Shown here piece after piece: positions 15,317 to 37,951 of a DNA stretch of 50,132 nucleotides; position 1 is the stretch's first letter; the number at the start of each line of letters is the position of its first letter. Both the position numbers and the translations under genes were made by a program. The DNA comes from Clostridia bacterium (lineage in GTDB: Bacteria; Bacillota; Clostridia; Lachnospirales; JAOARL01), in the NCBI GenBank assembly GCA_025210555.1, contig JAOARL010000003.1:1-50132 (forward strand). Reading direction: 5' to 3'. The notes below the pieces were generated by a model that searched no databases, had not been told where the DNA came from, and saw only the letters and a list, made by a program, of their open reading frames with translations.

Positions 15317-15331
15317 ATCTCGCTTTATTTA

Positions 15332-15742: not shown

Positions 15743-15754
15743 TATTTTTTCCTC

Positions 15755-16165: not shown

Positions 16166-16202
16166 TTCCAGACCTCCTCACTTAAGGTTTGTTTTCTCCT
16201 TA

Positions 16203-16232
16203 ATTTTACTATATTCTCTCTTTTTGTGTCAA
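16203..16232 (-). promoter_or_regulatory. promoter of the pilin-like pair
   Basis: TTGACA (16227-16232) and TAAAAT (16203-16208) on the minus strand are 18 bases apart, in the 71-base gap after the TadC-like gene. Together with the terminator at 15281-15316 it makes the two 136-residue genes a separate unit. Confidence 0.65.
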
Positions 16233-16236
16233 TAGG

Positions 16237-17385: not shown

Positions 17386-17397
17386 TTCTTACACCTC

Positions 17398-18411: not shown

Positions 18412-18420
18412 TCTTCTCAC

Positions 18421-20097: not shown

Positions 20098-20113
20098 TTA
20101 ATCACCTCTAAAT

Positions 20114-20977
20114 TTATCTCATAAAATATCTTCTTATAAGCTTAAGCTTATACTTTTTAAACATCTCAACCCATCTCTTGGCTGCACTTTTTTTTCTTTT
20201 TAATACCTTCTCTTTTAATACATAATTTGTATGTTTTCTAAATATGTACTCTACTATTTTTTCCATTTGGAATGTATAAGCTACATCTTCTATTCTTGTA
20301 CCTAATACAAAATTAAGTATTGACCCATAATTACACTCATTTATAAGGTCTAAGTTAAAGTCTAAGGTAAACACAGGCGAATCAAAGCCCATGTCCCTTA
20401 TCTCTTTCTTTATTTGTGTAACTTGATATTCAAGTTTTGCATAATCATATTTTTCAAAATATCTATTAACTACGAAAATTACTCTTTCTTTATGCTTTTT
20501 ATATCCTTCTATTTCGTCTATAAGCTTAACTACGCTCTTTATTGGATTAAGTACAACTATTATTGCATTTGATTTTTCAAAAAACATTTCTGAAGTTCTA
20601 TTATCTCCACTTATAGTATCTATTATTGCAAATTTATAAATTTCATTTGCATATTCCATAAGTGCCTTTATATTATCTTCTGTTACTTCAAAAAATCTAT
20701 GCGCCGCCATAATATCAATATTAAATTTAAGTTTCTTTACACAAGTTTCAAACGAATCTCTAGATAACAAACCTGAATTATGCAAGTTTATAAAATCGTC
20801 TAACCCTTTTGTAAAGTGAGCATCACTTAAGTAGTTTTCTATGTCTTTACAATATTTATTTATATCTACGAATATTATTTGTTCATTTTTTAAAATTTTT
20901 GTTATCATTGCCCCTATATTTATGGCAGTCACCGTTTGACCTAATCCTTTTCTTGGAGCCGTTACCGAAATAAGCAA
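20114..20977 (-). CDS. ParA/MinD-like protein with altered P-loop
   Basis: The fold is that of deviant-Walker ATPases (ParA, MinD, TadZ). The protein is 287 residues. The P-loop reads APRKGLGQTV, keeping the signature lysine (Lys10) but with Gln14 where the phosphate-binding lysine is expected, so ATP hydrolysis is doubtful. Further family traits are IIFVDINKY, KFAIIDTISGD and a late VVLNP. The basic C-terminal tail (KRKKSAAKRW...KLIRRYF) could bind membrane or DNA. The start is TTG with AGAGGTG six bases before it; a stop lies just upstream. It is located between the CpaB-like gene and tadA. A structural polar-localisation role, like that of TadZ, is inferred. Confidence 0.65.
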   Translation of the reverse strand: MLISVTAPRKGLGQTVTAINIGAMITKILKNEQIIFVDINKYCKDIENYLSDAHFTKGLDDFINLHNSGLLSRDSFETCVKKLKFNIDIMAAHRFFEVTEDNIKALMEYANEIYKFAIIDTISGDNRTSEMFFEKSNAIIVVLNPIKSVVKLIDEIEGYKKHKERVIFVVNRYFEKYDYAKLEYQVTQIKKEIRDMGFDSPVFTLDFNLDLINECNYGSILNFVLGTRIEDVAYTFQMEKIVEYIFRKHTNYVLKEKVLKRKKSAAKRWVEMFKKYKLKLIRRYFMR

Positions 20978-20996
20978 TTTTCACACCTCTTCCATA

Positions 20997-22001
20997 TTAA
21001 TTGTTAAGTGGAAAGTTTCCATTTGGCATAGTTGTAGCTGGCTTTGCAGCTGCATCTGCTGCTGCTTGAGCATCTAAAGCCTTTTTTACAGCACTTGATA
21101 AATCTATATCTTTTTGGCTATACCACTTTATAAACATCTTATCTGAATATTTCATTCTCTTGAATGAAGCTATTTGACTGTCTATTGTTCCACTTGAAGT
21201 TCTTTCAATACTATCCATAATTGCTAAAACTAAGTTCTTTGCTTGCTCATAACTAAATGTTACTCTTGCAGCTGGTTGTTCAGAGTTATTATACTTTCTA
21301 AGTTCTAACTTTCCTAAACCTTCTGCCATATTTAAATCTCTATATTCTTTTTCATTTACTGATAGAATTATTATTGCCGGATCATTAGTACCACTTTCAT
21401 CTGGAGCAATTAATTTTTCTACTCTTTTCTTAGCTGCAACAACTTCATAAGCACCATTTTCAAGGTTTACTAAAACGTCTACTTCTTGTCCTTCTTCAAG
21501 AGTTCCTGCTAAGAAGTTTGACACTTCATAATCTTTAAGTTTTTCATCGTTAGTTGCCCAAGATTTTCCTGAATTATCAATACTGCTTCTTAATATTTGT
21601 TCTTTTGCACTTAATGTTTCAGTTGTAAATTTCCCTTTAAGTCTAGCATTTTCAATTAATTCTTGCTTAACTCTACTTCTAGTACTCTTTTTACCTACAT
21701 CATCATTTAAAAAATATCCTGTATCTAATGTCGCTGTTATAGCTCCTTTTACTAAGAAACCTTCTACGTCATCTTTTGGAACTAACATTACATCAATTGA
21801 ATTGTTTATAATATCCTCTGTAATTCTTGTGCTTTGCTCAATTTCATTTGTTGCTGTTAATACCCATACAGCATCTTCCTTAAATGTCTTTTCCATTTCT
21901 ATTCTTACTTGTGGAATTCTTACCTCATTATAATAGAAGAATATTCCCGTTATTAGAACTAGAAAGAATGCAATAATTAAGTACGATCTTTGTTTTTTCA
22001 T
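20997..22001 (-). CDS. CpaB/RcpC-like SAF-domain pilus assembly protein
   Basis: The protein has about 334 residues, one N-terminal membrane helix (RSYLIIAFFLVLITGIFFYY) and an extracytoplasmic SAF-like part (ITEDIINNSIDVMLVPKDDV), followed by a beta-rich domain and an Ala/Pro-rich tail. CpaB/RcpC proteins act in the envelope at the pilus channel; in Gram-positive cells there is no secretin partner, so this one probably works at the membrane-wall interface. The ATG at 22001 has GGAG eight bases before it; a GTG at 22010 lies too close to the same site. It sits between two ParA-like genes in the Tad block. Confidence 0.65.
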   Translation of the reverse strand: MKKQRSYLIIAFFLVLITGIFFYYNEVRIPQVRIEMEKTFKEDAVWVLTATNEIEQSTRITEDIINNSIDVMLVPKDDVEGFLVKGAITATLDTGYFLNDDVGKKSTRSRVKQELIENARLKGKFTTETLSAKEQILRSSIDNSGKSWATNDEKLKDYEVSNFLAGTLEEGQEVDVLVNLENGAYEVVAAKKRVEKLIAPDESGTNDPAIIILSVNEKEYRDLNMAEGLGKLELRKYNNSEQPAARVTFSYEQAKNLVLAIMDSIERTSSGTIDSQIASFKRMKYSDKMFIKWYSQKDIDLSSAVKKALDAQAAADAAAKPATTMPNGNFPLNN

Positions 22002-22039
22002 ATTTACCACTCCTTATGTTTTTTTGACATTAATTTTTG

Positions 22040-24160
22040 TTAATTAAATAAATTTTTAACTTTTCTTCTCATGTTAAAACTTATTTTACTACAAAAATTA
22101 ACATATTCTTGTTTTTCTTTCTTGTTTAAGTATTCGTAACTTGGATTTCTATTTGCTAAACCTTTAAGCATAGCTTCATTATTTCCAGTAATCACATGCA
22201 AGTCCTTTATATTAATATTGGCATCATTTAAAATGTCACCAATAGTATTGTTTATATCATAATTATAAATTTCATGATAATCATTTACAACTACAACTAT
22301 GTTTTTAACACTATTTTTAATATTATTTATATACTGCTTGTGTTTGAATTTCTTTAATTCATTTTGATTTATTACAAGTATTACTAAATCTGAATTTAAT
22401 AATATTTCCCTTTGAACTTTCAAATCTAACTCACTTGAAACATCTATAATTAATTTTTCTTGAATACTTCTTTCTTGTTCTATAAGTCTAATTATATCAC
22501 AGCCATCAAACCTTGTCATTATCTCTGGATGCTCTGAATATACATATAAATTTTTTGTTATTTTTTGCTTTAATTTTGTTACATCATCACTTACTTTTAA
22601 TAAACTCATTGAATTAGCATAATTTTTTGGAAAATGGTAATAAATATCTTTGTGCTTATAATCAGAGTCTACAAGAACTACCCTTTCTCCATTTTCACTA
22701 AGCACCCATGCAATATTTGTTGCCAGATTTGTTTTTCCTATTCCTGATGCTCCAATTATTGATATAGTTTTAATCTGTTCTAATTCATATTCTGTATAAC
22801 CCTTATATTTTTTTGGCTTAACCAACTTTTTTCTAATTATCTTTTCATTTTCTGTAAAATTAGCTAATCCATCTTTTATCATTGCATATGTATGTTCATT
22901 AGATATACTATTTATATTTTTAATTTCTCTTTGATGCTTTCTAAGTTCTTTTTCAAGCTCCAGAACATCTATATTATCTTTTTTTACTATTGTTTCATTT
23001 ATAGTTTCCATAATATCTCTACTTTTAAGTTCATCTAGCATAACTAACTCTGCCGTTTTTATATCTGATGTATAATAAACGGTATTTTTAAGTAATAATT
23101 CATTCTCTATGAATTCTATATTTCTAGCAGAATAGCTTTTACTATATTTTTCATTTTCGTTCTTATATTCTTCTATACCTAAAACTGCTGATTTTAAAAC
23201 ATAATCATCAGATAAGTTGTTAAGAATAGTTTCATTCTCTTCTAGTTGATTAACCATATATATATCTTTTTGATTATCAACATTACTTATTGAACTAGCA
23301 ATCTCGTCTATCTTCTCTAATTCTTCTACCCTTACTTTCTGATTATCAATGTACTCTACTAGTATTTCTTCATCTTTTTGATTTTCTATAAATTCAACAT
23401 TTTCTCTGATGTAATCTGTCTTTTCTAAGTCATCTAAGATGCCTAGTTCATTTTCATAAGTATATGCTATGTTTTCGTTTTTGATATTTTCAACAAAGTT
23501 TATTGTTTTTTCAACATTATCCACATTTTCCAGCTTGTCTAATGTTAATAAGTAATCTTCCTTTGCCCTATTTGTGATATCTTCTTTTATATTTATTATA
23601 CTATCTATAGCCTTTGCTATTTCATCTTTATAATTAAGTTCTTCTATTTTAGATTCATCTTTATATATTACACTATACGTTTCAGGTTCCACTATCATTC
23701 TTATATTTTTAAGAACTTCTGGTTCGTCTTCATATAATTCCAAAGAATCAATAGCATGATCTTTATTACTATCTTGATAAAAGAATATTTCACCGTTAAT
23801 CATAAAAGATATATGTGACATAAATTCAATTTCTTCTTCAGTATCATCTTCTACTTTTGCAACTTCTTCAATATATTCTTTTACCTCTTTTATGACCTCT
23901 TCTTCTTTTGAAGTTATGAAGTTACTATTAATATATTGATCCTTTTCATCATCTTTTTCTGAATTATTTGCTTTGTTTTCATACAATTCATCAAAACTAC
24001 TTACTTCACTACTTTGTTTTGTATTTGAAATACTTTTGCTATATTTCATTATAGCTATTGTTAAAGCTAGCACCGTAAATATAATTTTCAGATCAACTAC
24101 TTCATCTATTTTAGAAAGTAAAATGCTCCAACCATGTAAAGCATTTATAAGTATTTCCAC
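22040..24160 (-). CDS. membrane-attached protein with C-terminal ParA/TadZ-like ATPase
   Basis: The 706-residue protein has a GTG start. An N-terminal hydrophobic stretch (LKIIFTVLALTIAIM, about residues 24-40) may anchor it. A long acidic Glu/Asn/Lys-rich helical middle (residues about 60-440) has no recognised domain. The C-terminal 240 residues form a ParA-type ATPase: GASGIGKTNLATN (Lys476), RVVLVDSDYKHKD and KLIIDVSSELD, here with an ordinary P-loop Lys. Its closest relative in the window is the 692-residue protein encoded at 24179-26257, whose ATPase shares the DxDxxxKDIxxHF pattern. It may localise or recruit the machine; that is inference from TadZ. Confidence 0.6.
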   Translation of the reverse strand: MEILINALHGWSILLSKIDEVVDLKIIFTVLALTIAIMKYSKSISNTKQSSEVSSFDELYENKANNSEKDDEKDQYINSNFITSKEEEVIKEVKEYIEEVAKVEDDTEEEIEFMSHISFMINGEIFFYQDSNKDHAIDSLELYEDEPEVLKNIRMIVEPETYSVIYKDESKIEELNYKDEIAKAIDSIINIKEDITNRAKEDYLLTLDKLENVDNVEKTINFVENIKNENIAYTYENELGILDDLEKTDYIRENVEFIENQKDEEILVEYIDNQKVRVEELEKIDEIASSISNVDNQKDIYMVNQLEENETILNNLSDDYVLKSAVLGIEEYKNENEKYSKSYSARNIEFIENELLLKNTVYYTSDIKTAELVMLDELKSRDIMETINETIVKKDNIDVLELEKELRKHQREIKNINSISNEHTYAMIKDGLANFTENEKIIRKKLVKPKKYKGYTEYELEQIKTISIIGASGIGKTNLATNIAWVLSENGERVVLVDSDYKHKDIYYHFPKNYANSMSLLKVSDDVTKLKQKITKNLYVYSEHPEIMTRFDGCDIIRLIEQERSIQEKLIIDVSSELDLKVQREILLNSDLVILVINQNELKKFKHKQYINNIKNSVKNIVVVVNDYHEIYNYDINNTIGDILNDANINIKDLHVITGNNEAMLKGLANRNPSYEYLNKKEKQEYVNFCSKISFNMRRKVKNLFN

Positions 24161-24178
24161 AGTAAGAGCACCTCTTTT

Positions 24179-26257
24179 CTATTGATTGTCTTTTTTTGTT
24201 AAATTTAAGAAGTCAAATATTTTCTTCAATGCGCTTTCTTCTTCTTGCGGCATATAATAAAAATTCATGATTTTCTTAATATCTTCTATTACTTTATTGT
24301 CTGTTTGATCTGTCGCTGGTTCTCTTGCTATCAATCCTTCTAGTATTGATTTATTATCTTCAGATACTGTAAATACATTTGTTACAGGTATGTCAAAAGT
24401 TGCATACTCATCAATTTCAATATCTCCAAAAAAGTTCTTTATTGTTTTAGAGTTTAAAAATTTAAGATCTTCGTATTTATTTATAATTACATCAACATTA
24501 TTATTTAAATACTTACTATACTTAAATAATTTTTGAGGTAATCTATTCATAATATTTACTCTTTGATCAACTACTATTAATGTGTTATCTGCAATTTCTA
24601 ATATATCATTAACGTAATCCGTATCTAAATGCTTACCTATGTCAATTATAACAACTTGTGATTCTTTTTTTGCAGTTGTTACAAGCTTGACTAAGTCATA
24701 CTTTGTAATTTCAACATCTTTATCCTTATGCTCTGAGAAAACTTTTAAGTTTTCATTAATATCTTGACCATAATCCATAATTCTACTATGATCACCAATA
24801 TTGCTCATACATCCAACATAATCTTTATTAAAATGGAAGAATATATCTTTATTTTCAAAATCTGTATCTATTAACACTGTACTTATATTTGCTTTACTAA
24901 ACTCATTTGCAAGATTGACAGCTATTGTTGTTTTACCCGTTGACTCTGGACTTAAAACAGCAAACACCTTTGTATAATCAGTTGGAACCTTATATACTTT
25001 TTCCTGCTCAATTTCTCTCATTATGCGAGTCTCTTCAAGCTTTTTTTGTTTTTCTTCTAACTCTTTTTGTTTTCTCTCATATTCTTTTTGGACTTTTTCA
25101 AGTTCCATTTGTTTAGATTGCATTTCTCTTTGTAATTGGTTTCTAAGTTCTGTTTCGCTTTCTATTGAAACTGTACTTGAATGTTTCGCAAGATCACTTA
25201 TTTTCTTTTTAGCTTCTTCAAGTTCTCTTTTTTCTCTTTCAAGCTTATCTTTATATTCCGCTTCAAGCTCTGCTTTTATTTTTTCTTCATTTGCTTTTGA
25301 TGCAGCTTTAGCTTCTTCAAGTTCTTTTTTCTCTTTTTCAAGTTTTTCTCTATATTCCGCTTCTACTTTAGCTGCAACTTCAGCTTTAACTTTTTCAGCA
25401 TCTTCTTTTATTTTATCTATTCTTGTTTTTTCTTCTTCAATCTCTACTCTTCTTTGCTCTAATTCTTTTTCAAGCGCTAATCTTATTTCTCTTTCTTTTT
25501 CTAATTCTTCTTTAGGTAAATTTGAATGCGAATTAACATTTTCTTCTAACTGTTTAAGATATTTTTCTTTTTCTGCAAGTTCTTGCTCTTTTTGATTCAT
25601 TTCATCTTCAAGCGCTTTTCTTAATTCTTCTTCTTTTTTCTTTTGAGCTTCAACAGCATTCTTTTGCATATCTTCTATTTCTTTTTGACGAGTTTCAAGT
25701 TCCTGTTGTTTTTTTAAAATTTCAGCTTCTAAAACTTCTCTAAGTTCATTAACTCTTTGTTGTTGCTGTTTATCTGTTTCTTCAGCCATTTCTTCGATTT
25801 GCTTTTGTCTCTCTTCAAGTTCTTGTTGCTTTCTCTCTATCTCTTCTTGCTCTTTTTCAAGCATTTCAGAGAAGTTGATTTTTTCATCGTCAACTTCTCC
25901 GTTTACTCTTAAGAACATTCTTTTATTATCCGCAAATGTTTTAGGATTATCTACTGCTTCAATGATTTTATTAACATCAATAGGGTCAAAAACTAAATCA
26001 TAGATAGCATATCTAAAACACATTCTTACTTCTGCTACTGCGTCTTCTTCAGTTAAATATATTATTCTTGTATTCTTTTGTCTTAAATAAAGGATTAGAT
26101 GCTCCATCTCAACATTTCCTACTAAATGTCTTGAAAGTATTACTATATCAAACGGGTTCTTTTGTAAAAACTCTCTATAGTTAACTATTTGCGAGTCTTT
26201 AAGCACCTCATTTAATTTTTTATCGAGCATATCATATCCTGTTGCTATAGCTATCAT
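24179..26257 (-). CDS. TadZ/CpaE-like protein with receiver-like domain, long coiled coil and ATPase
   Basis: TadZ/CpaE proteins have an atypical receiver domain and a ParA-like ATPase and direct pilus localisation. Here the N-terminal 120 residues resemble such a receiver (PFDIVILSRHL, RIIYLTEEDAV, YAIYDLVFDPIDV). Residues about 130-410 are a highly charged Glu/Lys/Gln coiled coil (EEIERKQQELEERQKQIEEM and repeats), and the ATPase follows with SPESTGKTTIAVN (Lys442) and STVLIDTDFENKD. The coiled-coil insertion between receiver and ATPase is unusual for the family and could span tens of nanometres. It is the first gene of the Tad section, with a candidate promoter and phased repeats just upstream. 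Confidence 0.75.
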   Translation of the reverse strand: MIAIATGYDMLDKKLNEVLKDSQIVNYREFLQKNPFDIVILSRHLVGNVEMEHLILYLRQKNTRIIYLTEEDAVAEVRMCFRYAIYDLVFDPIDVNKIIEAVDNPKTFADNKRMFLRVNGEVDDEKINFSEMLEKEQEEIERKQQELEERQKQIEEMAEETDKQQQQRVNELREVLEAEILKKQQELETRQKEIEDMQKNAVEAQKKKEEELRKALEDEMNQKEQELAEKEKYLKQLEENVNSHSNLPKEELEKEREIRLALEKELEQRRVEIEEEKTRIDKIKEDAEKVKAEVAAKVEAEYREKLEKEKKELEEAKAASKANEEKIKAELEAEYKDKLEREKRELEEAKKKISDLAKHSSTVSIESETELRNQLQREMQSKQMELEKVQKEYERKQKELEEKQKKLEETRIMREIEQEKVYKVPTDYTKVFAVLSPESTGKTTIAVNLANEFSKANISTVLIDTDFENKDIFFHFNKDYVGCMSNIGDHSRIMDYGQDINENLKVFSEHKDKDVEITKYDLVKLVTTAKKESQVVIIDIGKHLDTDYVNDILEIADNTLIVVDQRVNIMNRLPQKLFKYSKYLNNNVDVIINKYEDLKFLNSKTIKNFFGDIEIDEYATFDIPVTNVFTVSEDNKSILEGLIAREPATDQTDNKVIEDIKKIMNFYYMPQEEESALKKIFDFLNLTKKDNQ

Positions 26258-26332: not shown

Positions 26333-26860
26333 TTATTCTACTATTTTTATTATCTTTCCATTTTTATCTAAAATAAATGTGAAAATATTTTCTTCGACAC
26401 TTTCTTCTTCTACTGCTGCCACATCTTTAATATCATCATTTTCAAATTCTTCAAACATCACTTTTACTTCATATGTTCCATCTTTTTTTAATACATTATC
26501 AATAACAGAAACCGTATCTTCATTTATAAAATCAAACCTATCGAATATTTCATCTGCAGTATTATTTGAAGTGTCAAATAATTCTAAAACTGCTGCGTCT
26601 TTATTCGAAACAAACAATATAAAATTATTTACTGTTACTTGCATAAGAATGTAGTTTTCTAAATTATCTCCTTGATGTTTTTCAACCTCACTAACATAAT
26701 TTTCTTTTATATTTTCAATTATCTCATTTTCAACTCTTCTACTTCTAAACTTCCCAAATATTACTAACAATAGTACAAGTACAGCTACGGTTATTCCCAT
26801 TATTAATTTCAAGTTTTTTCTTATAGCTATTTTGAAACTCATTTTTTTAAAACTATTCAT
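26333..26860 (-). CDS. small single-pass membrane protein, VirB8-like position
   Basis: I do not recognise the family. The 175 residues start with a basic tail, then a membrane helix (LIMGITVAVLVLLLVIFG, about residues 19-37), then a soluble extracellular domain of about 135 residues ending in beta-like FTFILDKNGKIIKIVE. Topology, size and placement after a VirB6-like gene resemble VirB8/TcpC-type T4SS proteins (short cytoplasmic tail, one helix, NTF2-like domain), but this is only structural analogy. Its ATG overlaps the end of the NlpC-fusion gene by eight bases, so the two are coupled. Confidence 0.5.
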   Translation of the reverse strand: MNSFKKMSFKIAIRKNLKLIMGITVAVLVLLLVIFGKFRSRRVENEIIENIKENYVSEVEKHQGDNLENYILMQVTVNNFILFVSNKDAAVLELFDTSNNTADEIFDRFDFINEDTVSVIDNVLKKDGTYEVKVMFEEFENDDIKDVAAVEEESVEENIFTFILDKNGKIIKIVE

Positions 26861-29800
26861 CTATAAAATCCCCCTTATATTTACTAATTCTAGGTTTACC
26901 AAAATATTTAAATCTTGATGGCTCATTGCCTTTAAAATAATCTTTTGGCTTAGCTGCTGATCCATCTGATATATTATAAGATACCAAAACTCTACCGTTT
27001 TTTCTCAAAGGATCTCCTGGAACTTTCCAAGTTTTCCCTCCCGCATGTATAAACATTTTATTTCCAGTTTCCTCATCAACACCTATATAAATACCAACAT
27101 GCTTTGCTTTTCCTTTTGAATTAGTATATGGGTTATCATAAAATCCTAAATCTCCGATTTCTAGTTCACTTTCTGAAACAATATCACAATTTTTGAATTG
27201 ACTATTAGCAGCTCCATTCATTTCATCACTTGAAATGAAGTGTTTGTAAACCCAGTGTACAAAACCACTACAGTCAAATCCAAATGGTTGATTACTTCCT
27301 GGTGGCTGATTTTTCTCATTTCCAGCAGCAGTTACTTCTTGTAAAGTAAACCACTTTTCATTATATTGTCCTGTTGTATATGTTCTTCCACCCCAGAAAT
27401 AAGGTAGTCCTAATACTGATGTAGCAACTTCTACAAAATCTGCTCTTTCAAACCTATCTCCAATTTGAGGTATGTTAAAGTTCTCTACAAACTGATTTAT
27501 TTCGCTTAAGTTTGCAAGTAGGTTATGTATGTTATTAGCGTTTTTATCTAAATATATCATGTATTCATTTGTATACCCTCTTATATCCGAATCTGTTCTA
27601 GGTACTATTGTTCTTCTAATAGAGTTTCTTCCACCTGGAAAATCATCTACAGTTTTTAAGTAAGTACCCATAGTATAATCAAATAATTGATAAGTATCTA
27701 AACCATAATATCTTCTTTTGTTATAGAACTCACCTCTCATACTATCTTGTAGTATTCTTAAAAATCTATCAGACTTATCTTCAACTTTAGTTAAAGAAGT
27801 ATCTTCTTGAATATATCTACTAACCGATGTTTCTTCTCTTACACCACTATAAGACACTTCTATTCTCACGTATCTATTCATATCATCAAAGCCGACATCT
27901 TCTAAATCTTCCATAAACTCTTCAAGTTCTTCTGTAATCTCTATGTCTGAGCTGTAATCACCCTCGCCTAAGCTTTCATGAGTTATATCTGGTTCATAAG
28001 TTTTTCTTTCAAATTCTTCATTTCTATCTAAAATCTGACTCTTTTTAAGTTCTTTTGGCTCTTTAACTTTTACTTTTTGCCTTACTTTATATGCTATATC
28101 TTTGTTTATAAACATGTCTTTCTTTGATTTTTCAAGGAAACTAGCTCTTGTTCTCGCAATTTCTTTGTCTACATATACTCTTTGATAATAATTCTCTGCT
28201 ACAAAATCTGGTTCATCCGTATCCTTAAAATATTTCTTACCATTATCTTTCTTATCTACCTCGAGATTATATATCTCAACTTTCATAGTAATTATATCTT
28301 TCACTTTATCTGTTTCATATTCATCAAGAGGGTTACCTTCAAATTCTGCTACTTCTGAAACTATTATTCCATCTTCATACTCTGGTTTGTAAATTTCACC
28401 ATCATCTTTTACGTACCAATCAACAATTTTATTTTTAACCAATTTCTTTGGATACTCTTTTCCATAATCAAGGAATCTATTATCAACAGCCTTAATTTTA
28501 TCTTCAACATTATTTATTCCTGTTTGATTAGGGAATATATATTCTTTATTAGTTAACAATCCTGAATCATATATATTATCTGTTGCCGGCTTATATATAC
28601 CTTTTAAAAACTCATCTAACTTTCCTGATTCATTAACTACAAAATGCTTTTTAAACGCTGCCACAAACTGCCAAGGTAATCTTTCATCATAATATATTCC
28701 ATATTGTTTCTCCTCAGGAACATAAGACTCATCTTCCTTTATGTGATCTGTGAATTTAGTACTCACCATTCTTTCTTTTCTTCTCCAAGCATCTTCTTCC
28801 ATATGACTTTCATATTCTTCATTTATTTCAATATGGTCTTTAATTATATCTACTTTTATAGCTCTATCTTCATATTCATCTTCATCATATGATTTTATTA
28901 GTTGGAAATATGTTGCTCTTTCCATATCTAAGAACTTTATCATGTCATTGTAATCTGTTAAAGCATCTTCTCTTATTTCATCCTTCTTGTTTTCTATTTT
29001 ATTTTCTATAAAATCATCAGTAATTTGATTTGCATCATCTATACTTTTATTAAGACCATCAATCCCACCAACTCCAAATTGACTTGATGAATTTGCATTA
29101 CTATTAACATTTTTCACTTCTGTTTCTGTTTTTATTCCAGCTTCTTTTTTAGCATCTTCAAGCGATCTTTTATCTGCTTCCGATAAAGCATTATCTACTT
29201 CAAGTTGAGCATCTAAAATTTCACCATAATCTTCTCCAGTTTTGTATTTAATACTTCTAGCTGCTAAATCCAGATACTCTTCTTCTCCCATAGATTTAAA
29301 TGCATCAATTGCTTTTTCTGCAAGTTCTGTACTAAGATTAAATACATCTTCATTAGATATGTTAGCCTTATCTATAACAATAGATGCCATACTAAGCTTT
29401 TTATCATAAGTATGTAAATTAAGCATAACTGAAACTATATACATAACTATAATTAGTACTGTAACTACCCATGTTATATAGCATATTGGTGGAGTAGTAA
29501 ATAATAATTTTATTAATTGCCAAAGTTTTTTAAATCCTTTTCCTATTTTCTTTAGTACATTTGCACCTCGTTGAACTCTTTTTTCAGCTTTCTTCTTTTT
29601 ATGTTCTTTATATCTTTTTTCTCCGTCTTTACCATGAACTCTTTTGAAGTTAGCTTCTTTCATTTTGTCCCATGTTCCTAATTTTCCACTTACAAAAGAT
29701 ACTACATTAAGCTTCGATCCAAGTCCTTTTGCCATGTTTTTCTCATCTATACCATGCATTCTTTTATATGGATTTACATATATAGAATTTCTAATAGTCT

Positions 29801-31775
29801 CTCCTATTTGTAGCGCTGCAATTAACCATATTGCATTATATATCCAGTTATAATCTCCTACATGAATAAATACTATAGCAAAAAACAATCCAATCGCATA
29901 TGCTATTTGCATTATCATATTTGAAACAAGTTCTTTTATCCATATTTCTCCCATTTCAACTTCTGGAGAAATTCCCCATAGAACCAAAGCAACTGGCGCT
30001 AATGGCAAGAATAAACTTATCATTACTTTTCTTACTGCTAGCATTAAAAATATATTAAATTCAATCCATACAAATATTGTTTTTAATATTACTGTACTAC
30101 CAACATCTCTTCCTGTAAGTATTGGCGCAATTTCTAAGGTATCATTTAACGGTATTGCATATGTCGCTTCTATTATAAATGACATTACAATTCTATATAA
30201 ATGTGGAAACATAGTTATTAAAAATATTGATGCAAGCCACCTTACATAAGAAGATTTTATTTTTTTCCTTTCAAATGCTGAAAATCCTTTTGATATATAA
30301 TCATAGCCTGTTTTAGCAACTATAACAATTATAAGCGGAAGTGAAAACGCCATTATTATTTTATATAATTTCATTATGCTATTCCACTCTGTAGGTGTGA
30401 ACGGTTCTATATCTAATATTCTTTCGCCTTCTTTAACCCTTAAGAATACCATTCTATCTATAGATGCATCACTTTTAAAAATCCACGTTTTACCATCTTG
30501 CAATATTTTTATTATTGAATTTAAAAATGAAGCAAAATTTCTATCAGTAAAGTTTTCTGGTTTTTCAAACTCACCATTACTATCTCTTTCAGCTTCAGCA
30601 ACCAAAGCAACGCTTGGATATTCATCTACATTTTCTTCATATCTACTAGTTCTCACAATATTCTCTTCAGTGATTGTTCTAAAGAAATTTCCAAACAATA
30701 CTAAGTTCGATAATATAAGACCTCCAATTGCAACGTACACCAAACTATACATAGCTTGTGCTCTTTCTGTTGGAGCCGCTTTTGATATCATCATTCTAAC
30801 TCCTATAGCTATTACAACTAAAAATATAGTTATAGGTCCTAATACTTCTATCAGAGATATTAATCTAATTATAATAGATGTATTATTATCCTTTATTGTT
30901 AATTTATCTATACCGATTTCATTTAATATAGTATGTTTCAGCTTTTCATCTTCAATCCAAAATTCTGCAACTTTCTTTTTGAGCTCAGCTCCTTCTTGAT
31001 CATATACTTTTTCAAATACGGTAATTTTAACTTTTTCAAATTTAGGAAATTTGTATATTATATAATTTCCTTCTGCATATATTCTTTTTTCTATACCCCT
31101 TGCATATATTTGATTTGTTATAATGTTATCTGTTTCTTCAAAACTAGGTTTACTATTTAAATACATTTTTTCAGTTTCAAGATCTAATTCCATTTTTCTT
31201 CCGTAATAATCTATATACTTTACAAGAGTGTCGTCAACTTTCTTAAAGTCTACTAACTTATTAATATCTTTAATGTCTAAATGGTCTCTTACTTTGTAAT
31301 AAAAAATTCCATTTTTTTCTTCATATATACTTATAATGATTCCCTTTTCTAAAGGATCTATTTCATATCCAAAATTATCATCTTCATCTTCTTTTGTTTC
31401 ATCTGATAAGTTTATTATTACTTCTTCTCCATTAAGTAAAGTATATTTAATTTTTATTGAACCTTCTTCTTGATATATTATTCTATTTTCATCATTAAAT
31501 TTTATATGTTCAATAACATCTGAAGCTTCATTGTATTTCTCTTTTAATATATCTTTTAATTTCTCAGGATATTTTGATTTGGTTATTTCTTTTTTCTCAC
31601 CATTAATAATAACTGAATACTTTCCGTTAACTAAATCTAATAGTTCGAAATTGTTTGATGTAGTTACAATTTCTCCACTAAAAGTTTCACTTAATTCTAT
31701 CTCTGCAAAGCTATTTAGAAAACCAATTGCAAAAACAAATAATATCCCAATTAAACTTTTATATAATTTATTCAT
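26853..31775 (-). CDS. giant VirB2/VirB6-like membrane protein with C-terminal NlpC/P60 peptidase
   Basis: The 1640-residue protein combines parts usually encoded separately. A signal peptide (LIGILFVFAIGFLNSFAE) and an extracellular region of about 280 residues come first. A two-helix unit with ERAQAMYSLVYVAIGGLIL (about 305-370) resembles TrbC/VirB2 pilins. A polytopic VirB6-like region (about 460-670) and another helix near 775 follow. The long external part ends in an NlpC/P60 domain with FDCSGFVHW (Cys1502), KHVGIYIG (His1559) and FIHAGG. Such domains cleave peptidoglycan peptides, so this could open the wall for the machine. It has its own promoter and overlaps the 175-residue gene. Confidence 0.8.
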   Translation of the reverse strand: MNKLYKSLIGILFVFAIGFLNSFAEIELSETFSGEIVTTSNNFELLDLVNGKYSVIINGEKKEITKSKYPEKLKDILKEKYNEASDVIEHIKFNDENRIIYQEEGSIKIKYTLLNGEEVIINLSDETKEDEDDNFGYEIDPLEKGIIISIYEEKNGIFYYKVRDHLDIKDINKLVDFKKVDDTLVKYIDYYGRKMELDLETEKMYLNSKPSFEETDNIITNQIYARGIEKRIYAEGNYIIYKFPKFEKVKITVFEKVYDQEGAELKKKVAEFWIEDEKLKHTILNEIGIDKLTIKDNNTSIIIRLISLIEVLGPITIFLVVIAIGVRMMISKAAPTERAQAMYSLVYVAIGGLILSNLVLFGNFFRTITEENIVRTSRYEENVDEYPSVALVAEAERDSNGEFEKPENFTDRNFASFLNSIIKILQDGKTWIFKSDASIDRMVFLRVKEGERILDIEPFTPTEWNSIMKLYKIIMAFSLPLIIVIVAKTGYDYISKGFSAFERKKIKSSYVRWLASIFLITMFPHLYRIVMSFIIEATYAIPLNDTLEIAPILTGRDVGSTVILKTIFVWIEFNIFLMLAVRKVMISLFLPLAPVALVLWGISPEVEMGEIWIKELVSNMIMQIAYAIGLFFAIVFIHVGDYNWIYNAIWLIAALQIGETIRNSIYVNPYKRMHGIDEKNMAKGLGSKLNVVSFVSGKLGTWDKMKEANFKRVHGKDGEKRYKEHKKKKAEKRVQRGANVLKKIGKGFKKLWQLIKLLFTTPPICYITWVVTVLIIVMYIVSVMLNLHTYDKKLSMASIVIDKANISNEDVFNLSTELAEKAIDAFKSMGEEEYLDLAARSIKYKTGEDYGEILDAQLEVDNALSEADKRSLEDAKKEAGIKTETEVKNVNSNANSSSQFGVGGIDGLNKSIDDANQITDDFIENKIENKKDEIREDALTDYNDMIKFLDMERATYFQLIKSYDEDEYEDRAIKVDIIKDHIEINEEYESHMEEDAWRRKERMVSTKFTDHIKEDESYVPEEKQYGIYYDERLPWQFVAAFKKHFVVNESGKLDEFLKGIYKPATDNIYDSGLLTNKEYIFPNQTGINNVEDKIKAVDNRFLDYGKEYPKKLVKNKIVDWYVKDDGEIYKPEYEDGIIVSEVAEFEGNPLDEYETDKVKDIITMKVEIYNLEVDKKDNGKKYFKDTDEPDFVAENYYQRVYVDKEIARTRASFLEKSKKDMFINKDIAYKVRQKVKVKEPKELKKSQILDRNEEFERKTYEPDITHESLGEGDYSSDIEITEELEEFMEDLEDVGFDDMNRYVRIEVSYSGVREETSVSRYIQEDTSLTKVEDKSDRFLRILQDSMRGEFYNKRRYYGLDTYQLFDYTMGTYLKTVDDFPGGRNSIRRTIVPRTDSDIRGYTNEYMIYLDKNANNIHNLLANLSEINQFVENFNIPQIGDRFERADFVEVATSVLGLPYFWGGRTYTTGQYNEKWFTLQEVTAAGNEKNQPPGSNQPFGFDCSGFVHWVYKHFISSDEMNGAANSQFKNCDIVSESELEIGDLGFYDNPYTNSKGKAKHVGIYIGVDEETGNKMFIHAGGKTWKVPGDPLRKNGRVLVSYNISDGSAAKPKDYFKGNEPSRFKYFGKPRISKYKGDFIDE

Positions 31776-31881: not shown

Positions 31882-34800
31882 TTATGATTTATATCCATAA
31901 TTATTTGATTTTTTAAATTCACCTCTTCCGCCTATATATTGACCTTCACTTGAAGGATCTGTATATTTGCTATCTTTACCTTTTGTAAGGATTACTGAAT
32001 TATCGCTAACCATAACTTCTTTAACGTACTTTCCGCCTCCAAAACTTTTACTGTTAGCTAATGTAGTAGCAAATTTAGATACTTGTTCTGGCTTTAATCC
32101 TTCATCAATTGATTTTTGAATTGAGTCAACCAAAACTCCTCTTATATCTTTTTCACTTGCTACCCCATTCATATTCCAAGGCATTTTACCCTTTGCCTTA
32201 CTCCAAGATTTCGCATCTCCTGTATGATGAGTAACACCTGCATCTATAGCTTTATCAACTGTACCTGCTATATCACTCGCTATCCCTTGAAGTTGTTTTG
32301 TAACTCCAGCTCCTTCGAATCCCATAGTTCCCCAACTAGCTGTACCAATCATGGCTTCTTTTATACTATCTTTTATAGCATTTTTATTAGCTAAATTATC
32401 TTCTTCTAACTTCTTAATATCATCTGCAGCTTTTTTATTAATGTCTGCTTGAGCCATCTTACTCATAACTGCATTTGAAACAGCATCAGCGAATCTATCC
32501 ATATCTTGACTATCTAGACCTGATCCATTTCCGCCTCCAAATGGATTTCCACCTCCACTATTTCCATCATTTCCAGCATCTCCTGTTGGATCTGGTTGAT
32601 ACCCTGAACCTTTTTTAAACTCAGTTGGCTTATTAACTCCAGCTTGCTTAAACATTTTAAGGCCTGCTCCAGCTGCTTTAGCCGTAACTCCTGTAACGTT
32701 TTTAACTACTCCAAGAGTATTTCCAACTTGTCCCATAACTCCACTAGCAACTTTCTCTTCATCGATACCCATTTTACTAGCAAAGAATGTTTGAAGTGAG
32801 TTCTTAAGCATTTTAGCTACTTGCATAGCCATCATCATCCATACTAAGAAATACAACCAACTTTGATCTGTTGAAACTAATAAATATGCCATAACATAGA
32901 ATGTTAATGCATAGAAAAATTGAGTTGATAAGTTTGAGAAAATTTCTCCAAACCATATTTTAATAGTATTTCCTGGTGCTCTCATTCCCCACATAAATAT
33001 TGCAAGTGGTGATATAACAAATAATATTGTTAACATTATTTTTCTTACTAAGAATATAAAGTATATATTAAGTTCTATCCCCACAAAGAACAATCTAAAA
33101 ATTGCATCACCCAAAGGATTGTTTGTGTTAATTATATCCATATAATCAATATTCATACTAGATACTGGTAAAACTAGAACCAATTCATTAAATACTATTA
33201 TAAGCATTTTAAATATCCAAGGGAATATTGGCATAATAAATACACTCATTATCCATTTAAAGAAATCACCCTTAAGAACTGATCTTTTATCAACTGATTG
33301 ACTAAATATAATATATTCAAATCCTGTTTTAGCAACCATTAAAAACACTAGTGGTATAGCTATTGATGCTATTGTAGCATATATTTTCAGTAGCACATTC
33401 CATTCCTTTGGTGAGAATGGTTCAAGTGCACTTAAATTCGCATCACCTTCTACATCATTTAAGAATAGCACTGTATTTATGTCGGATTTTTCTCCAAATA
33501 TCATATCTTTTATACTTCTACCTAAATCTATAATACTATCCATAACTCCTACCATACCTTTGATAGCAAGTCCAGCGATTCCACCAACATCTTCTTTTAC
33601 TTCTCCGTCTAATTTAACACTATTAGTTTCTTCTACAACATATTCTTCCATTTCATATTTTTCTTCAAATGTTTCGAACATGTTATTTGCAGTATTTATA
33701 ACAAATGATGATATAAATAACAAGTTTCCTAATATAAATCCTCCTATTGCTATATATACTAAGCTGTACATAGCTTGAGCTCTCTCTACTGGTGCAGCTT
33801 TAGTTACTATCATTTGAATACCTACAGCCATTATTGCTGCAAAGGTTATAAACGCACCTAAATTTCTAATTATTTCCATTATAGTTCCCAAAAATACATT
33901 TAACGCTTTTTCATTAGGACCATCGCCTAAAACTGCTGAAATAGTATTTCCTTCAATAATATCAACTAAATCATTTTTATTGAACCACAATACAACCAAG
34001 TCGTAAGTTGAATTAGATACTGTTGACATTTCAATCTTACTTGTATTATTTGCACTAGTATCATAAGTCCCTTCGTAATCACTAAATAAAACTCTTATCT
34101 TATACATATTACTTGATTTTCCCAAACTTTCAGGTTCTAAAGTAATCCTTTCGTTGTCCGCTACAAAATCAATTACTCCATTTCCTACATCGCTAGCCAC
34201 AATCGTAAACCTTACAGGTAACTTCTTAGTTTTGATTGTAGTAGCAGCACTTGCTCTATCTTGACCATACCCATCTATAAAAAATTTATTTGTTTGCTCT
34301 ATCGGATCTAAAATAAATTCAACTTGACTAAGCTTCATATGGTCAGATCCAACCATAACATTATTTCCACCTAGCGCAATTTTAACTTTACCATCATATA
34401 AATAATCAATATTTATTGCTGGATTCACTTCTATTCTATTACCTTCAGCATCATATACTCTAACAAATTCCCACATGTACTCATTGTTTTTCTTATTTAA
34501 ACCATCTGAGATATTTATTATATATTCTGAGTAAAGTGTATCTTTTAAATAACCTTCCCCTTTATACTTTGCTATAATAGCATATCTACTTTCATGCTTT
34601 ATTTTGTCATATGCATCAGGAGTTTTATCAAAATCCACAACTTTATAAACAACTCCCGATGTTCCATTTTTCATTTTTTTATAAAAACTACTTACAGAAG
34701 TTCTATAAACATAATCATCATTTATTTTTATGATAATCTCTCCATTATCTTTTTCTATATCAGCCTTTACTCCATTCAAGCTAGATGGTGCATCTATTAG

Positions 34801-35283
34801 TTCACCGTTATCCAGGTTTACTTCAAAGGAATCACCTAGAGTTTTAGCTTTATAATAATAAACTTTTAAAACTCTTCTTTTTTCACTTAAAATAACACTT
34901 CTAGCCGTTACATATGCATCATAAAATTTAACACCGTAATTTTTATTAACAACTGTAATTTTAAGACCATTTACAGTGACATTCGCAGTCGCTATACATT
35001 CATCAAACTTTTTATCTGGTTCCCCTAAGTTTTTTAACTCAACAACATTTTTATTTTCACCTATTAATTTACCCATATCAAATTTTGCTAAAGCTCTATA
35101 CTTATCATCACCTATATAAAAATCAAATTCATAATTAATTATTTCACCATCTGTTTCATCACCATACGTTTTATATTCATCAGCTTTTTCCCCTGTCATT
35201 GTTCCAACAGCTTCATAAGCAAATGTCCAGTTAAATGTCATAAAGAACATTAATGAAATAATTAACAGCATTTTCTTCATCAT
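31882..35283 (-). CDS. giant VirB2/VirB6-like polytopic membrane protein
   Basis: The protein has about 1133 residues. A signal peptide (MLLIISLMFFMTFNWTFA) leads into an external region of about 450 residues. Then come a VirB2/TrbC-like helix pair (VERAQAMYSLVYIAIGG, about 470-530) and a VirB6-like region of several helices (about 630-830, including MVAKTGFEYIIFSQSVDK). The C-terminal tail, probably cytoplasmic, has a Gly/Asn-rich stretch (NSGGGNPFGGGNGSGL). It is a clear paralogue of the protein encoded at 26853-31775, without the NlpC/P60 domain. VirB6 forms the inner-membrane channel of type IV secretion. The ATG at 35283 has GAGGTGAG before it; an earlier ATG at 35301 lacks one. Confidence 0.78.
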   Translation of the reverse strand: MMKKMLLIISLMFFMTFNWTFAYEAVGTMTGEKADEYKTYGDETDGEIINYEFDFYIGDDKYRALAKFDMGKLIGENKNVVELKNLGEPDKKFDECIATANVTVNGLKITVVNKNYGVKFYDAYVTARSVILSEKRRVLKVYYYKAKTLGDSFEVNLDNGELIDAPSSLNGVKADIEKDNGEIIIKINDDYVYRTSVSSFYKKMKNGTSGVVYKVVDFDKTPDAYDKIKHESRYAIIAKYKGEGYLKDTLYSEYIINISDGLNKKNNEYMWEFVRVYDAEGNRIEVNPAINIDYLYDGKVKIALGGNNVMVGSDHMKLSQVEFILDPIEQTNKFFIDGYGQDRASAATTIKTKKLPVRFTIVASDVGNGVIDFVADNERITLEPESLGKSSNMYKIRVLFSDYEGTYDTSANNTSKIEMSTVSNSTYDLVVLWFNKNDLVDIIEGNTISAVLGDGPNEKALNVFLGTIMEIIRNLGAFITFAAIMAVGIQMIVTKAAPVERAQAMYSLVYIAIGGFILGNLLFISSFVINTANNMFETFEEKYEMEEYVVEETNSVKLDGEVKEDVGGIAGLAIKGMVGVMDSIIDLGRSIKDMIFGEKSDINTVLFLNDVEGDANLSALEPFSPKEWNVLLKIYATIASIAIPLVFLMVAKTGFEYIIFSQSVDKRSVLKGDFFKWIMSVFIMPIFPWIFKMLIIVFNELVLVLPVSSMNIDYMDIINTNNPLGDAIFRLFFVGIELNIYFIFLVRKIMLTILFVISPLAIFMWGMRAPGNTIKIWFGEIFSNLSTQFFYALTFYVMAYLLVSTDQSWLYFLVWMMMAMQVAKMLKNSLQTFFASKMGIDEEKVASGVMGQVGNTLGVVKNVTGVTAKAAGAGLKMFKQAGVNKPTEFKKGSGYQPDPTGDAGNDGNSGGGNPFGGGNGSGLDSQDMDRFADAVSNAVMSKMAQADINKKAADDIKKLEEDNLANKNAIKDSIKEAMIGTASWGTMGFEGAGVTKQLQGIASDIAGTVDKAIDAGVTHHTGDAKSWSKAKGKMPWNMNGVASEKDIRGVLVDSIQKSIDEGLKPEQVSKFATTLANSKSFGGGKYVKEVMVSDNSVILTKGKDSKYTDPSSEGQYIGGRGEFKKSNNYGYKS

Positions 35284-35304
35284 TTTCTCACCTCTATCCA
35301 TAAA

Positions 35305-37128
35305 CTAAGTTTTTATGTATCCCCATTCAAAGTTGAATGCATTCATCTTAAGCACTACTTGATCTTGTTCTGTTAAAAGCATTCCTGTACCTGCTGTAAA
35401 ACTTCCTAAGAAATCCGCAGATTTATCTGACAGATCAAAGAAATCTGCTACAACTTTAGCAACACTTGGATCCTGCTTCATTATAAGCTTAGTAGCACAC
35501 TGGTGAATAACAGCTTTACCAGAGTCACTTCCTAAAAACTCATTTATCATTTGAGATGCTATAACTAATGATATTTTGTACTTTCTACCACGTCTAGCGA
35601 TTTCTTCAAGGAAGGCTGCTGATCTTTCATATTTAGCAAATAACCATCCCTCATCAACTATAACTCTCTTTTTAATATCTTTATATTTCCAATTTGAGAA
35701 TTTACCCCAAATCCATGAAAGTATATTAACCATTGCATAGAACTTCATGAAATCGTCCCCAATGTGTTTAAAACTTATACCAATTATTCTTTTATTTAAA
35801 TCTACTTTTGTTTGCCCATCAAACATTGCAAGCGATCCATCTCCTGTAATAATTTTTATAGTTTGAGCTAAATCTTGCGTATATGGGTTTTTAGCTAATT
35901 CTTCTCTAAGTTCTGATAAAGTTGGCATTTCTTTTTTCACTTTACCCATGAAGAATTTACCATCTACTTCTTCAGATTTTGCTTCATATAAACTATCTCC
36001 ATCTTTAGTTATTCCACGCTTTGTATACATTTCTTTCATTATTTCTTCTACCGATGTTATTTCTTCTCCTTTAAGAGGCATTTGTCTATACTTCTCACAG
36101 AATAAAGAAATCATCTCTCTTATTTCAGAAATTTTAGCGTATATATCCAGTTGTCCATCACTCTCTACTTCAAGTTCAAATGGATTTATACCAATATTGC
36201 TACCTGCTTTAATTTCTATATACTGACCACCTAAATGATCTACTATATCTTTATACTCTTGCTCAGGGTCAAGTATTATTACCCACTCTCCTGACGCTGC
36301 ACCTCTAGATGCAACAAGTTTCATTGTAACAGACTTTCCAGCCCCTGCCATACCGAATATACCCATCATTGGGTTTGTTACTTCTGGCGGTCCTATAAAA
36401 TTATCAAAAAATATAGGAGAGTTTGTAAATACATTATTTCCTAAATATATCCCTGATTTATGTGACATCTCTGTATTACCTGTTGGCACAAAAGAAGCAA
36501 TTGCTCCACTTGTCATATTTCTAATACTGTCATCATGTTTTATATTTTTATATGGTAAAGAACTTATAAATGCTCCTCCTTGATCAAAAGTTAATACTCT
36601 TGGTTTAAGAGCCTTTCTAGAACATATATCTTCAAAAACTGAACATTTTTCTTTAAGTTCTTGTTCACTATCTCCCCATATTGTTATTATTACTTGAACA
36701 ACAAACATTCTATCTGTATTAGTTTGAATACTTTCACGCAAATTATCTAAATCGGCAATAGCTTTACGTAAACCATAGTTAGATGCTGAAACATTTTTTT
36801 CTTCTAATATAAGATTAGATTGTAATGCTGTCATTTTATTTGTTAAAGTTCTAATTATTTGACTGTTAGGTATATTTTCTATATACGTACTAATATCAAT
36901 ATTTCCTAACTCCGCAAAGAATTCATTTAATATCCCTACATAAACATTATGTGGATATACAGATATTGCATGCATTCTTGCATATTTATTTGGTCCTAAA
37001 TATATATAATCTTTTGTTTCTTGATAAGCATCAGGCATTATCATATCAACTAACGATAATTTTCCTTTTTCTAAAGTCTCTTCTACGTTTCTTTTTACCT
37101 CTTGTTTTTCTTTAACTTTCTTCGCCAT
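35305..37128 (-). CDS. virB4: VirB4-family type IV secretion ATPase
   Basis: VirB4 is the conserved cytoplasmic ATPase that energises type IV secretion and pilus biogenesis. The 607 residues contain Walker A GMAGAGKSVTMK (Lys265), Walker B KRVIVDEGWLF, and the downstream family block ASQMINEFLGSDSGKAV with a C-terminal arginine-finger-like region around IHQCATKLIMKQD. All look intact. The N-terminal third matches the VirB4 N domain in length but is shorter than in Gram-negative VirB4. The ATG at 37128 has GAGGGTG upstream; a longer reading from 37170 lacks a binding site. It overlaps the TraC-like gene before it and lies between it and a VirB6-like gene. Confidence 0.9.
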   Translation of the reverse strand: MAKKVKEKQEVKRNVEETLEKGKLSLVDMIMPDAYQETKDYIYLGPNKYARMHAISVYPHNVYVGILNEFFAELGNIDISTYIENIPNSQIIRTLTNKMTALQSNLILEEKNVSASNYGLRKAIADLDNLRESIQTNTDRMFVVQVIITIWGDSEQELKEKCSVFEDICSRKALKPRVLTFDQGGAFISSLPYKNIKHDDSIRNMTSGAIASFVPTGNTEMSHKSGIYLGNNVFTNSPIFFDNFIGPPEVTNPMMGIFGMAGAGKSVTMKLVASRGAASGEWVIILDPEQEYKDIVDHLGGQYIEIKAGSNIGINPFELEVESDGQLDIYAKISEIREMISLFCEKYRQMPLKGEEITSVEEIMKEMYTKRGITKDGDSLYEAKSEEVDGKFFMGKVKKEMPTLSELREELAKNPYTQDLAQTIKIITGDGSLAMFDGQTKVDLNKRIIGISFKHIGDDFMKFYAMVNILSWIWGKFSNWKYKDIKKRVIVDEGWLFAKYERSAAFLEEIARRGRKYKISLVIASQMINEFLGSDSGKAVIHQCATKLIMKQDPSVAKVVADFFDLSDKSADFLGSFTAGTGMLLTEQDQVVLKMNAFNFEWGYIKT

Positions 37129-37951
37129 CGCTAGTTTCACCCTCTTCCTCTGTTGCTTTATTAAATTCATCTAAAGAAATAACTTCTTTTTCTGGTGCTG
37201 TTACATACATAGATAATGCATCTTTACCTATTAGGTTTTCGATAGATACATTTTGACCTTTATTAAATACTGATGATAGAAGTTCTGCTATCTCAACACT
37301 GTGTAAATGTTTAATACTAACGCCGTGTGCAGTTTCTAATCCTTCAGCTATCATTCTTTTTCTTATTTCTAATTCTTTTAATGCTTTTGCATCATCATAT
37401 ATTCCATCTACCCCAAATACACAATAACTTTTTCTAACATATAATCCTGCATTGTTTTCAATTTCAGATAGTTTATCTCTAAGCATACTTGCATAATCCC
37501 TAAGTTCATGTGTTACACCAGCACTGTCATCTTCTATAAGTGCTTCAACATTTTCAACTGACTTTTTAGTACTTACTTTTACAGTTGTAGTAAAAAACTG
37601 AATTGGAAAATTTAATCCTATTGCAAATTGTATAAGCGCATTTTCAAAATGAACTTGATCCGCATCTGTTAAAAGCTCAAAGTCTGTTGTTGAAATACTA
37701 ACTACCGACCTTTTTGCATTTCTTTTAAAAAGATTTATTACACCAAGCCCGTAATGATCTTCTATACTCTTAATTTCAAACTTATCTATAATTTTACTTC
37801 TTTTATCTTTTTTAATACTTGCTTTTGCTTTCGTTGTCTGTTGCTGTGGTATAACAAGATCTGGATTCAATCCACCCTTTTTATCAAAGTGTGAATATAA
37901 TGCTATCCCTATTGCACCAAGAACTGACATTATTAGAAAAAACGCTGTCAT
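37112..37951 (-). CDS. TraC-like small T4SS protein between PrgI and VirB4
   Basis: The 279-residue protein has one N-terminal membrane helix (TAFFLIMSVLGAIGIALYS) and a soluble domain with SVVSISTTDFELLTDADQV and ALIQFAIGLNFPIQFFTT. That pattern recalls the small TraC-like proteins found next to PrgI and VirB4 in Gram-positive systems, in which a strand-rich block resembles the VirB4 N domain. It probably pairs with VirB4 at the membrane. GAGG lies before the ATG; the gene starts two bases after prgI and overlaps virB4 by 17 bases. The C-terminal tail is acidic (EEEGETSDGEES). Confidence 0.6.
   Translation of the reverse strand: MTAFFLIMSVLGAIGIALYSHFDKKGGLNPDLVIPQQQTTKAKASIKKDKRSKIIDKFEIKSIEDHYGLGVINLFKRNAKRSVVSISTTDFELLTDADQVHFENALIQFAIGLNFPIQFFTTTVKVSTKKSVENVEALIEDDSAGVTHELRDYASMLRDKLSEIENNAGLYVRKSYCVFGVDGIYDDAKALKELEIRKRMIAEGLETAHGVSIKHLHSVEIAELLSSVFNKGQNVSIENLIGKDALSMYVTAPEKEVISLDEFNKATEEEGETSDGEES

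Follow-up and report, generated by a model that had tools for sequence, protein, structure and literature searches.

A VirB6-like protein from a Clostridia bacterium that ends in an NlpC/P60 peptidase: a candidate tethered wall hydrolase of a type IV secretion system

All known VirB1 homologues of Gram-positive type IV secretion systems (T4SSs) are membrane-anchored proteins with extracellular enzyme domains, according to the available part of a 2025 review (PMC12857230), and these systems lack VirB10; the review names as open both the identity of the subunit that bridges translocon and wall and the purpose of wall disruption. Here we analyse a gene from a complete contig of 50,132 bases (Clostridia bacterium, JAOARL010000003.1; the whole of it is called the window), the product of which, P0001, resembles TcpG of pCW3, PrgK of pCF10, CstB1 of pCS1 and the NlpC proteins of CD1110/CD1115-type elements in that a predicted exported, transmembrane (TM)-anchored protein with an NlpC/P60 or CHAP domain is encoded in a T4SS locus. 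In the described Gram-positive systems, as far as the sources at hand cover them, VirB1-like hydrolases are products of separate genes, whereas the one in P0001 hangs on a VirB6-like core and has no SLT domain. We consider it probable that P0001 is a second VirB6-type subunit, in which a TM-anchored VirB1-like hydrolase has taken the place of the C-terminal cytosolic tail; this estimate covers the anatomy and the mechanism proposed below together.

A polytopic core is also shared by P0001 with VirB6, TrbL and the extended VirB6 proteins (PrgH-like proteins, TrwI, DotA and the VirB6 paralogues of Rickettsiales). The latter occur as tandem paralogues with long extensions (PMC2653234 and PMC7648143, in the parts available), as in the window; the extension of P0001 differs in bearing a recognisable wall peptidase, a domain absent from all 37 other members of the VirB6 family in the scan. 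The T4SS of Patescibacteria is similar in its monoderm-type core, VirB2-like pilins and frequent location near the replication origin, and the accessible text of PMC12102498 describes no VirB1-VirB6 fusion there and places VirB1 homologues mostly away from virB4. No report of a VirB6-hydrolase fusion was found in the open-access literature, subscription papers being mostly outside that search.

Architecture of the fused protein

The fusion gene (26853-31775, minus strand, as are all its parts given below) is a single uninterrupted ATG frame of 1640 codons with no internal stop, and codon usage supports this frame in each 100-codon block, including the junction. An earlier annotation of this DNA, made from the sequence alone (the original prediction), had placed VirB2-like, VirB6-like and NlpC/P60 parts in one chain, and all three are indeed present in the one frame. 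The signal peptide that it named is there as well; it overlooked a TM helix at residues 767-785, an exported linker of about 655 residues and a tandem paralogue at 31882-35301, and left the strand unstated.

The chain begins with a signal peptide (residues 1-24, 31704-31775; hydropathic segment at 8-26, cleavage site placed by eye) and an N-terminal domain predicted from loop charge to be exported (residues 25-307, 30855-31703), for which sequence comparison gave no match to the N-terminal regions of other VirB6 proteins. A T4SS-pilin (VirB2)-like helix pair (residues 303-362, 30690-30869) and the VirB6-like core (residues 436-673, 29757-30470) come next, followed by a basic stretch (residues 640-766, 29478-29858; 28 K/R and 10 D/E), and by the extra TM helix (residues 767-785, 29421-29477), which would lead the chain outside. 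The linker (residues 786-1440, 27456-29420), in which profile, shuffle and model comparisons recognised no fold, connects this helix to the NlpC/P60 region (residues 1441-1640, 26856-27455). By a simple hydropathy window, on which all TM counts in this work are based, TM segments start at residues 308, 344, 467, 517, 562, 584, 621 and 767, five of them lying at 467-639, beyond the helix pair at 308-362. The net charge of the loops per 100 residues alternates strictly between inside (+11.8, +16.1, +66.7, +14.2) and outside (-5.7, -7.7, -11.5, -16.7, -6.1), so that residues 640-766 are predicted to be cytosolic and residues 786-1640 exported; the "arm rooted in the channel" of the original prediction is a fair inference from this topology.

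Pfam family NLPC_P60 matches residues 1467-1583 (E 2.1e-12, 47.4 bits against a cut-off of 23). Cys1502 (27270-27272) and His1559 (27099-27101), singled out at the outset, are both present and conserved, and so is His1577 (27045-27047), which we take to be the third, polar catalytic residue. The nearest solved NlpC sequences include the Tn916-like hydrolases 9ubf and 4hpe, and the domain is 32.6% identical over 181 residues (E 2e-19) to the hydrolase of Clostridiales bacterium GWD2_32_19 (G013; G and L numbers are labels of compared genomes and loci, respectively). Between the YFWGG and DCSG motifs, P0001 has an insertion that is common to the hydrolases of G013 and G031 and to loci L076 and L077. 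Four NlpC loci from the order could be read together with their neighbours, and the insertion-bearing ones, L076 and L077, are near VirB4, while the insertion-free L078 and L079 are not, within the stretch fetched; NlpC proteins beside VirB4 in known elements are of the same insertion subtype, and in a Paenibacillus MOBP plasmid the insertion-bearing protein directly follows a CD1110 VirB4. In a further set of 15 NlpC loci from the order, the insertion is absent from 14 and present in L008; the incomplete L009, in which an insertion was read by eye, is outside those 15. A profile of the subtype matched 11 of 378 genomes from the phylum at E <= 1e-14, the source genome included. Nine of these subtype loci were read; each carries the insertion (spacing 37-38) and is free of any polytopic region, seven having one TM segment, one two, and one none.

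Because the insertion subtype is found beside VirB4, the hydrolase end of P0001 is, on sequence evidence, best called VirB1-like. Like VirB1 homologues elsewhere, it belongs to a T4SS operon and is predicted to be an exported wall hydrolase with a TM anchor; the separate polypeptide usual for such enzymes is not found, there being a single frame of 1640 residues as read from the sequence. That the wall hydrolase is a separate protein in known Gram-positive systems had been part of the original prediction, in agreement with the available part of the review (PMC12857230) and with the relatives examined here. Among 38 VirB6-family proteins, only P0001 matched a wall-hydrolase family, namely NLPC_P60.

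The joining of VirB2-like and VirB6-like parts, which had been presented as part of the peculiarity of this protein, is real and yet not unusual. T4SS_pilin (PF18895) matches residues 303-354 of P0001 with E 8e-4 and 19.9 bits, below the curated cut-off of 26.6, and the helix pair, in which the motif ERAQAMYSLVYVAIGG noted earlier is located at residue 337, can be aligned with the free-standing pilins that these operons encode, with a common P-x-ER-x3-M-x-S pattern; the pair resembles these VirB2-like pilins in this pattern, and differs from them in being built into a VirB6 protein rather than free. The same Pfam family matches 20 of the 38 VirB6-family proteins at E <= 0.001 (best 1e-17), and a relative from G043 clears the curated cut-off with 31.5 bits, so the combination is a trait of the family, and the VirB2 part was rejected as the novelty. 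Short pilin-only frames (L038, L039, L041) and second fragments (L068, L069) were kept out of this set of 38, which does include the VirB6 of a Clostridioides plasmid and a protein of 1399 residues from G002, taken from its own stretch; L029 was scanned without its N-terminus, and L047 was short by about 84 C-terminal residues. As judged from these comparisons, the new part of P0001 is the NlpC end on VirB6, not the helix pair.

The VirB6-like core and the origin of the fusion

The polytopic family to which P0001 belongs occupies the VirB6 position of T4SS operons, and the fused core, 31% identical in the family alignment to the core of its tandem neighbour, VirB6a, retains the positions that are invariant in the family. 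A profile of the family matched 7 of 392 genomes from the order, 6 of 391 from the class and 21 of 398 from the phylum, the source genome being counted each time and the three sets being overlapping samples. An AlphaFold2 model of residues 295-799, built from 7 sequences, was compared with known structures by VIA-align 2; residues 436-675 matched best TrwI/VirB6 of R388 (7o3v_F, Z 9.4 over 217 residues, 4.7 A), followed by a second TrwI/VirB6 structure of R388 (8rt9_F, Z 8.8) and by DotA of Legionella (9ngy, Z 8.8), where Z under about 13 can arise by chance between helical bundles. Because the family sits in the VirB6 position, and because the three best structural matches of this low-confidence model are VirB6, the core of P0001 is likely VirB6. 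A sequence search of the PDB with the VirB6 profile retrieved only a chemokine receptor (E 0.0028), which was taken as a chance match between membrane proteins.

Several observations weigh against this assignment or against the fusion as we read it. No VirB6 model of Pfam or NCBIfam matches P0001 at the limits used; the AlphaFold2 model is of low confidence (mean predicted local distance difference test score, pLDDT, 54.3; predicted template modelling score, pTM, 0.43); the Z-scores above fall in the range open to chance; and Foldseek E-values for VirB6 chains are 1.3-1.5. The VirB2/VirB6 fold that the original prediction had expected in residues 305-670 is weakly borne out, in that the top three structural matches are VirB6, by a model of low confidence. 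For the linker, too, similarity to the TM-anchored proteins found in relatives is not significant: the best domain in hmmsearch has E 0.16, hhalign gave a single match of 16 columns with 6% probability, the Smith-Waterman scores against five such proteins were equalled or exceeded by 15, 21, 34, 52 and 147 of 300 shuffles, and the model of linker and NlpC domain has a mean pLDDT of 31.0. Finally, the fusion is seen in one genome, the sole one of its family examined. Homology of the linker to the TM proteins of 780, 833 and 1486 residues, considered as a candidate, was dropped, the profile and shuffle tests giving it no support and only layout and position agreeing. The C-terminal model, with its mean pLDDT of 31.0, was likewise set aside as uninformative.

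In relatives, VirB6 and the wall hydrolase are encoded separately. The gene order in G013 is VirB6 (1041 residues), a TM-anchored protein (780), an SLT+NlpC hydrolase (505), a small TM protein (175) and a TadZ-like protein, compared with VirB6a, the 1640-residue fusion, a 175-residue protein and a TadZ-like protein in the window; G031 has the same gene set as G013, spread over two contigs. The small TM protein follows the hydrolase in G031 as it does in G013, and the 175-residue protein of G013 is related to that of the window. In G043, VirB6 is followed by a TM protein with a C-terminal Amidase_2 domain (E 6e-12) and then by an SLT+M23 protein, in G002 several VirB6 genes precede one for a TM protein that has Peptidase_C39_2 at its C-terminal end (E 3e-18), and in the Clostridioides plasmid PrgI, VirB4, VirB6 (664 residues) and an NlpC protein (603 residues, one TM segment, SLT below cut-off) adjoin. 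As far as sequence comparison goes, the position of the wall enzyme is variable, and among the loci examined it is joined to VirB6 only in the window. Scans of genome contigs and viral contigs with P0001 gave no match, nor did viral contigs with VirB4; 5 of 72,556 records in a plasmid collection and 4 of 50,697 in a phage collection were matched, none with VirB6 and NlpC parts at one place.

Two further loci extend this range of layouts. A T4SS operon of Clostridiales bacterium GWE2_32_10 encodes a TM-anchored protein of 1486 residues ending in an N-acetylmuramoyl-L-alanine amidase (L072:7239-11699). The G002 genome, 69% complete, has five VirB6 genes (L023, L024, L025), some encoding about 1400-1580 residues, and this amplification is independent of that in the window.

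VirB6a (31882-35301, minus strand; 1139 residues) has the same helix pair and core without a hydrolase, as seen by Pfam, hydropathy and the tree, and is 32% identical to the fusion protein over 406 residues (E 7e-60). When 11 VirB6 cores were placed in a maximum-likelihood tree, the fused copy and VirB6a group together (99.7/100) with branch lengths of 1.56 and 0.70, respectively, and since they do so, the fused VirB6 is, judging by these sequences, a lineage-specific duplicate of its tandem neighbour, and a fast-evolving one. The fused core is 18-21% identical to those of other lineages, and VirB6a 21-29%. From the end of the core to the TM helix at 767 there are about 55 residues in P0001, compared with about 360 residues by which VirB6 of G013 continues past its core. 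VirB6a would have been duplicated in this lineage, and the copy, having diverged, may have been joined to a downstream TM-anchored hydrolase, with loss of the long VirB6 tail and of the SLT domain. No SLT domain was found in P0001 by Pfam, or in the genome at E <= 0.01, so the glycan-cutting half of the enzymes of G013, G031 and G043 is missing here.

Proposed mechanism and rival explanations

If P0001 is made and kept as one chain, its VirB6 part would enter the VirB6 ring or sit beside it in the membrane, the linker would place the peptidase in the wall immediately outside the channel, and wall opening would be confined to translocon sites, in a fixed ratio to translocons. The architecture suggests a secretion machine that carries its own tethered wall cutter. 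A natural VirB6-VirB1 fusion would mean that a covalent link does not keep the two partners from working; it predicts contact of the separate VirB6 and VirB1 proteins elsewhere, and offers a single-gene handle for testing.

One gene could still give rise to two proteins, either by proteolysis between the VirB6 core and the TM helix at 767, or by an internal start near codon 705, and both would free an ordinary TM-anchored hydrolase of the VirB1-like kind. An AGGA motif precedes the ATG at codon 705 by about 12 nucleotides, initiation at this codon would give a product arranged like the separate hydrolases (a stub in the cytosol, then TM segment, exported region and NlpC domain), and VirB1 of A. 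tumefaciens is reported as cleaved in the available part of PMC2653234. We regard this as unlikely: the motif is weak and its distance to the start exceeds the usual one, no such motif precedes the ATGs at 778, 784 and 796, and the long VirB6 tail of relatives is absent, which means that more has happened than the loss of a stop between two complete genes.

The VirB6 half might, alternatively, be a decayed duplicate that serves as a mere membrane anchor, with channel function left to VirB6a. The fused branch, with over twice the length of the sister branch, and the lower identity of the fused core to other lineages fit such decay; yet the family-invariant positions are kept, loop charge still alternates, and G002 too keeps several divergent VirB6 copies, so this explanation also appears rather improbable.

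The reading of P0001 as a VirB6-type subunit with a tethered hydrolase can be carried further, to a mechanical bridge in which a VirB6 subunit replaces the VirB10-like link between translocon and wall. The state of the channel would then be passed through the TM helix at 767 and the linker to the peptidase, so that engagement of the channel starts the cutting; each machine would have a set number of cutters, and the apparatus would be a chromosomal, non-conjugative T4SS-Tad hybrid. We think this doubtful.

It is quite unlikely that the NlpC end faces a partner cell and, in the manner of an adhesin or a killing module, binds or opens the wall of that target. An adhesin role has been proposed for inactive VirB1 homologues (PMC12857230, available part), and conjugation is unproven for this system, since relaxases of PF03432 and PF01076 are absent from all five genomes that have it (other relaxase families were not searched); still, the catalytic residues of P0001 are conserved, and a linker of about 655 residues suits the cell's own wall equally.

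An artefact by which a lost stop merged two genes is very hard to credit, even though there is one assembly of 38 contigs from the single genome of the family, for codon usage is frame-consistent over the junction, the junction is compact and without the long VirB6 tail of relatives, and the genome (1.56 Mb) is 99.57% complete and 0.45% contaminated.

The operon and neighbouring genes

The genes upstream of VirB6a on the same minus strand encode the ATPase part of VirB4, nearest to the CD1110 family by Pfam and NCBIfam (35305-37170), a probable separate VirB4 N-terminal domain, assigned from its location and from its resemblance, judged by eye, to the N-terminal part of the Clostridioides VirB4, which is not split, with no Pfam family above cut-off (37112-37951), PrgI, which is VirB3-like (37954-38289; PF12666, E 6.5e-12), and a stand-alone VirB2-like pilin candidate of 231 residues (38347-39042; T4SS_pilin E 1e-3, below cut-off, and alignment). 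The VirD4 coupling protein is on the plus strand (48005-49981) and belongs to the CD1115 family (NF045973, 309.7 bits against a cut-off of 250). In typing against the MPF_FATA/CD1110 kind of T4SS, VirD4 and PrgI are above their cut-offs, and CD1110 VirB4 scores 262.8 bits against 325, the N-terminal part being a separate gene. VirB4 is apparently split in this way in the window, G013, G031, G043 and G002, and unsplit in the relative on the Clostridioides plasmid.

The fusion gene is followed by that for a small single-TM protein of 175 residues (26333-26860, minus strand), a candidate VirB8-like protein by position, with blastp similarity to the G013 protein (E 4e-4) and no Pfam family above cut-off, and then by Tad-type genes that include a TadZ-like one. 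The Tad-type genes (13424-26257, minus strand) directly follow the T4SS genes and encode a TadA-like ATPase with similarity to VirB11/TrbB, and CpaB-like, TadZ/CpaE-like and pilin-like proteins; T4SS and Tad-type genes are likewise together in G013, G031 and the Clostridioides plasmid (L026, L028, L080). Because VirB11 is said to be lacking in Gram-positive T4SSs (PMC12857230, available part), the Tad ATPase might serve both systems. In the window as well as in G013 and G031, parA, parB and rsmG are close to the locus, and on account of this proximity and of the absence of PF03432 and PF01076 relaxases from the five genomes, it may be a resident machine and not a mobile element.

Among other features of these loci, a TadZ-like protein in L028:6224-8845 has a long EELRQ-type repeat, and similar repeats occur as opposite-strand frames in L026:17685-18703. 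At the start of the contig there are transposase-like genes (98-1266, IS3-type by eye). Downstream of the Tad genes, large exported proteins are encoded at 3416-13412, two of them with S-layer-homology-like repeats recognised by eye and one matching an Ig-like domain with a score below the cut-off, and these are possibly surface or pilus-tip proteins.

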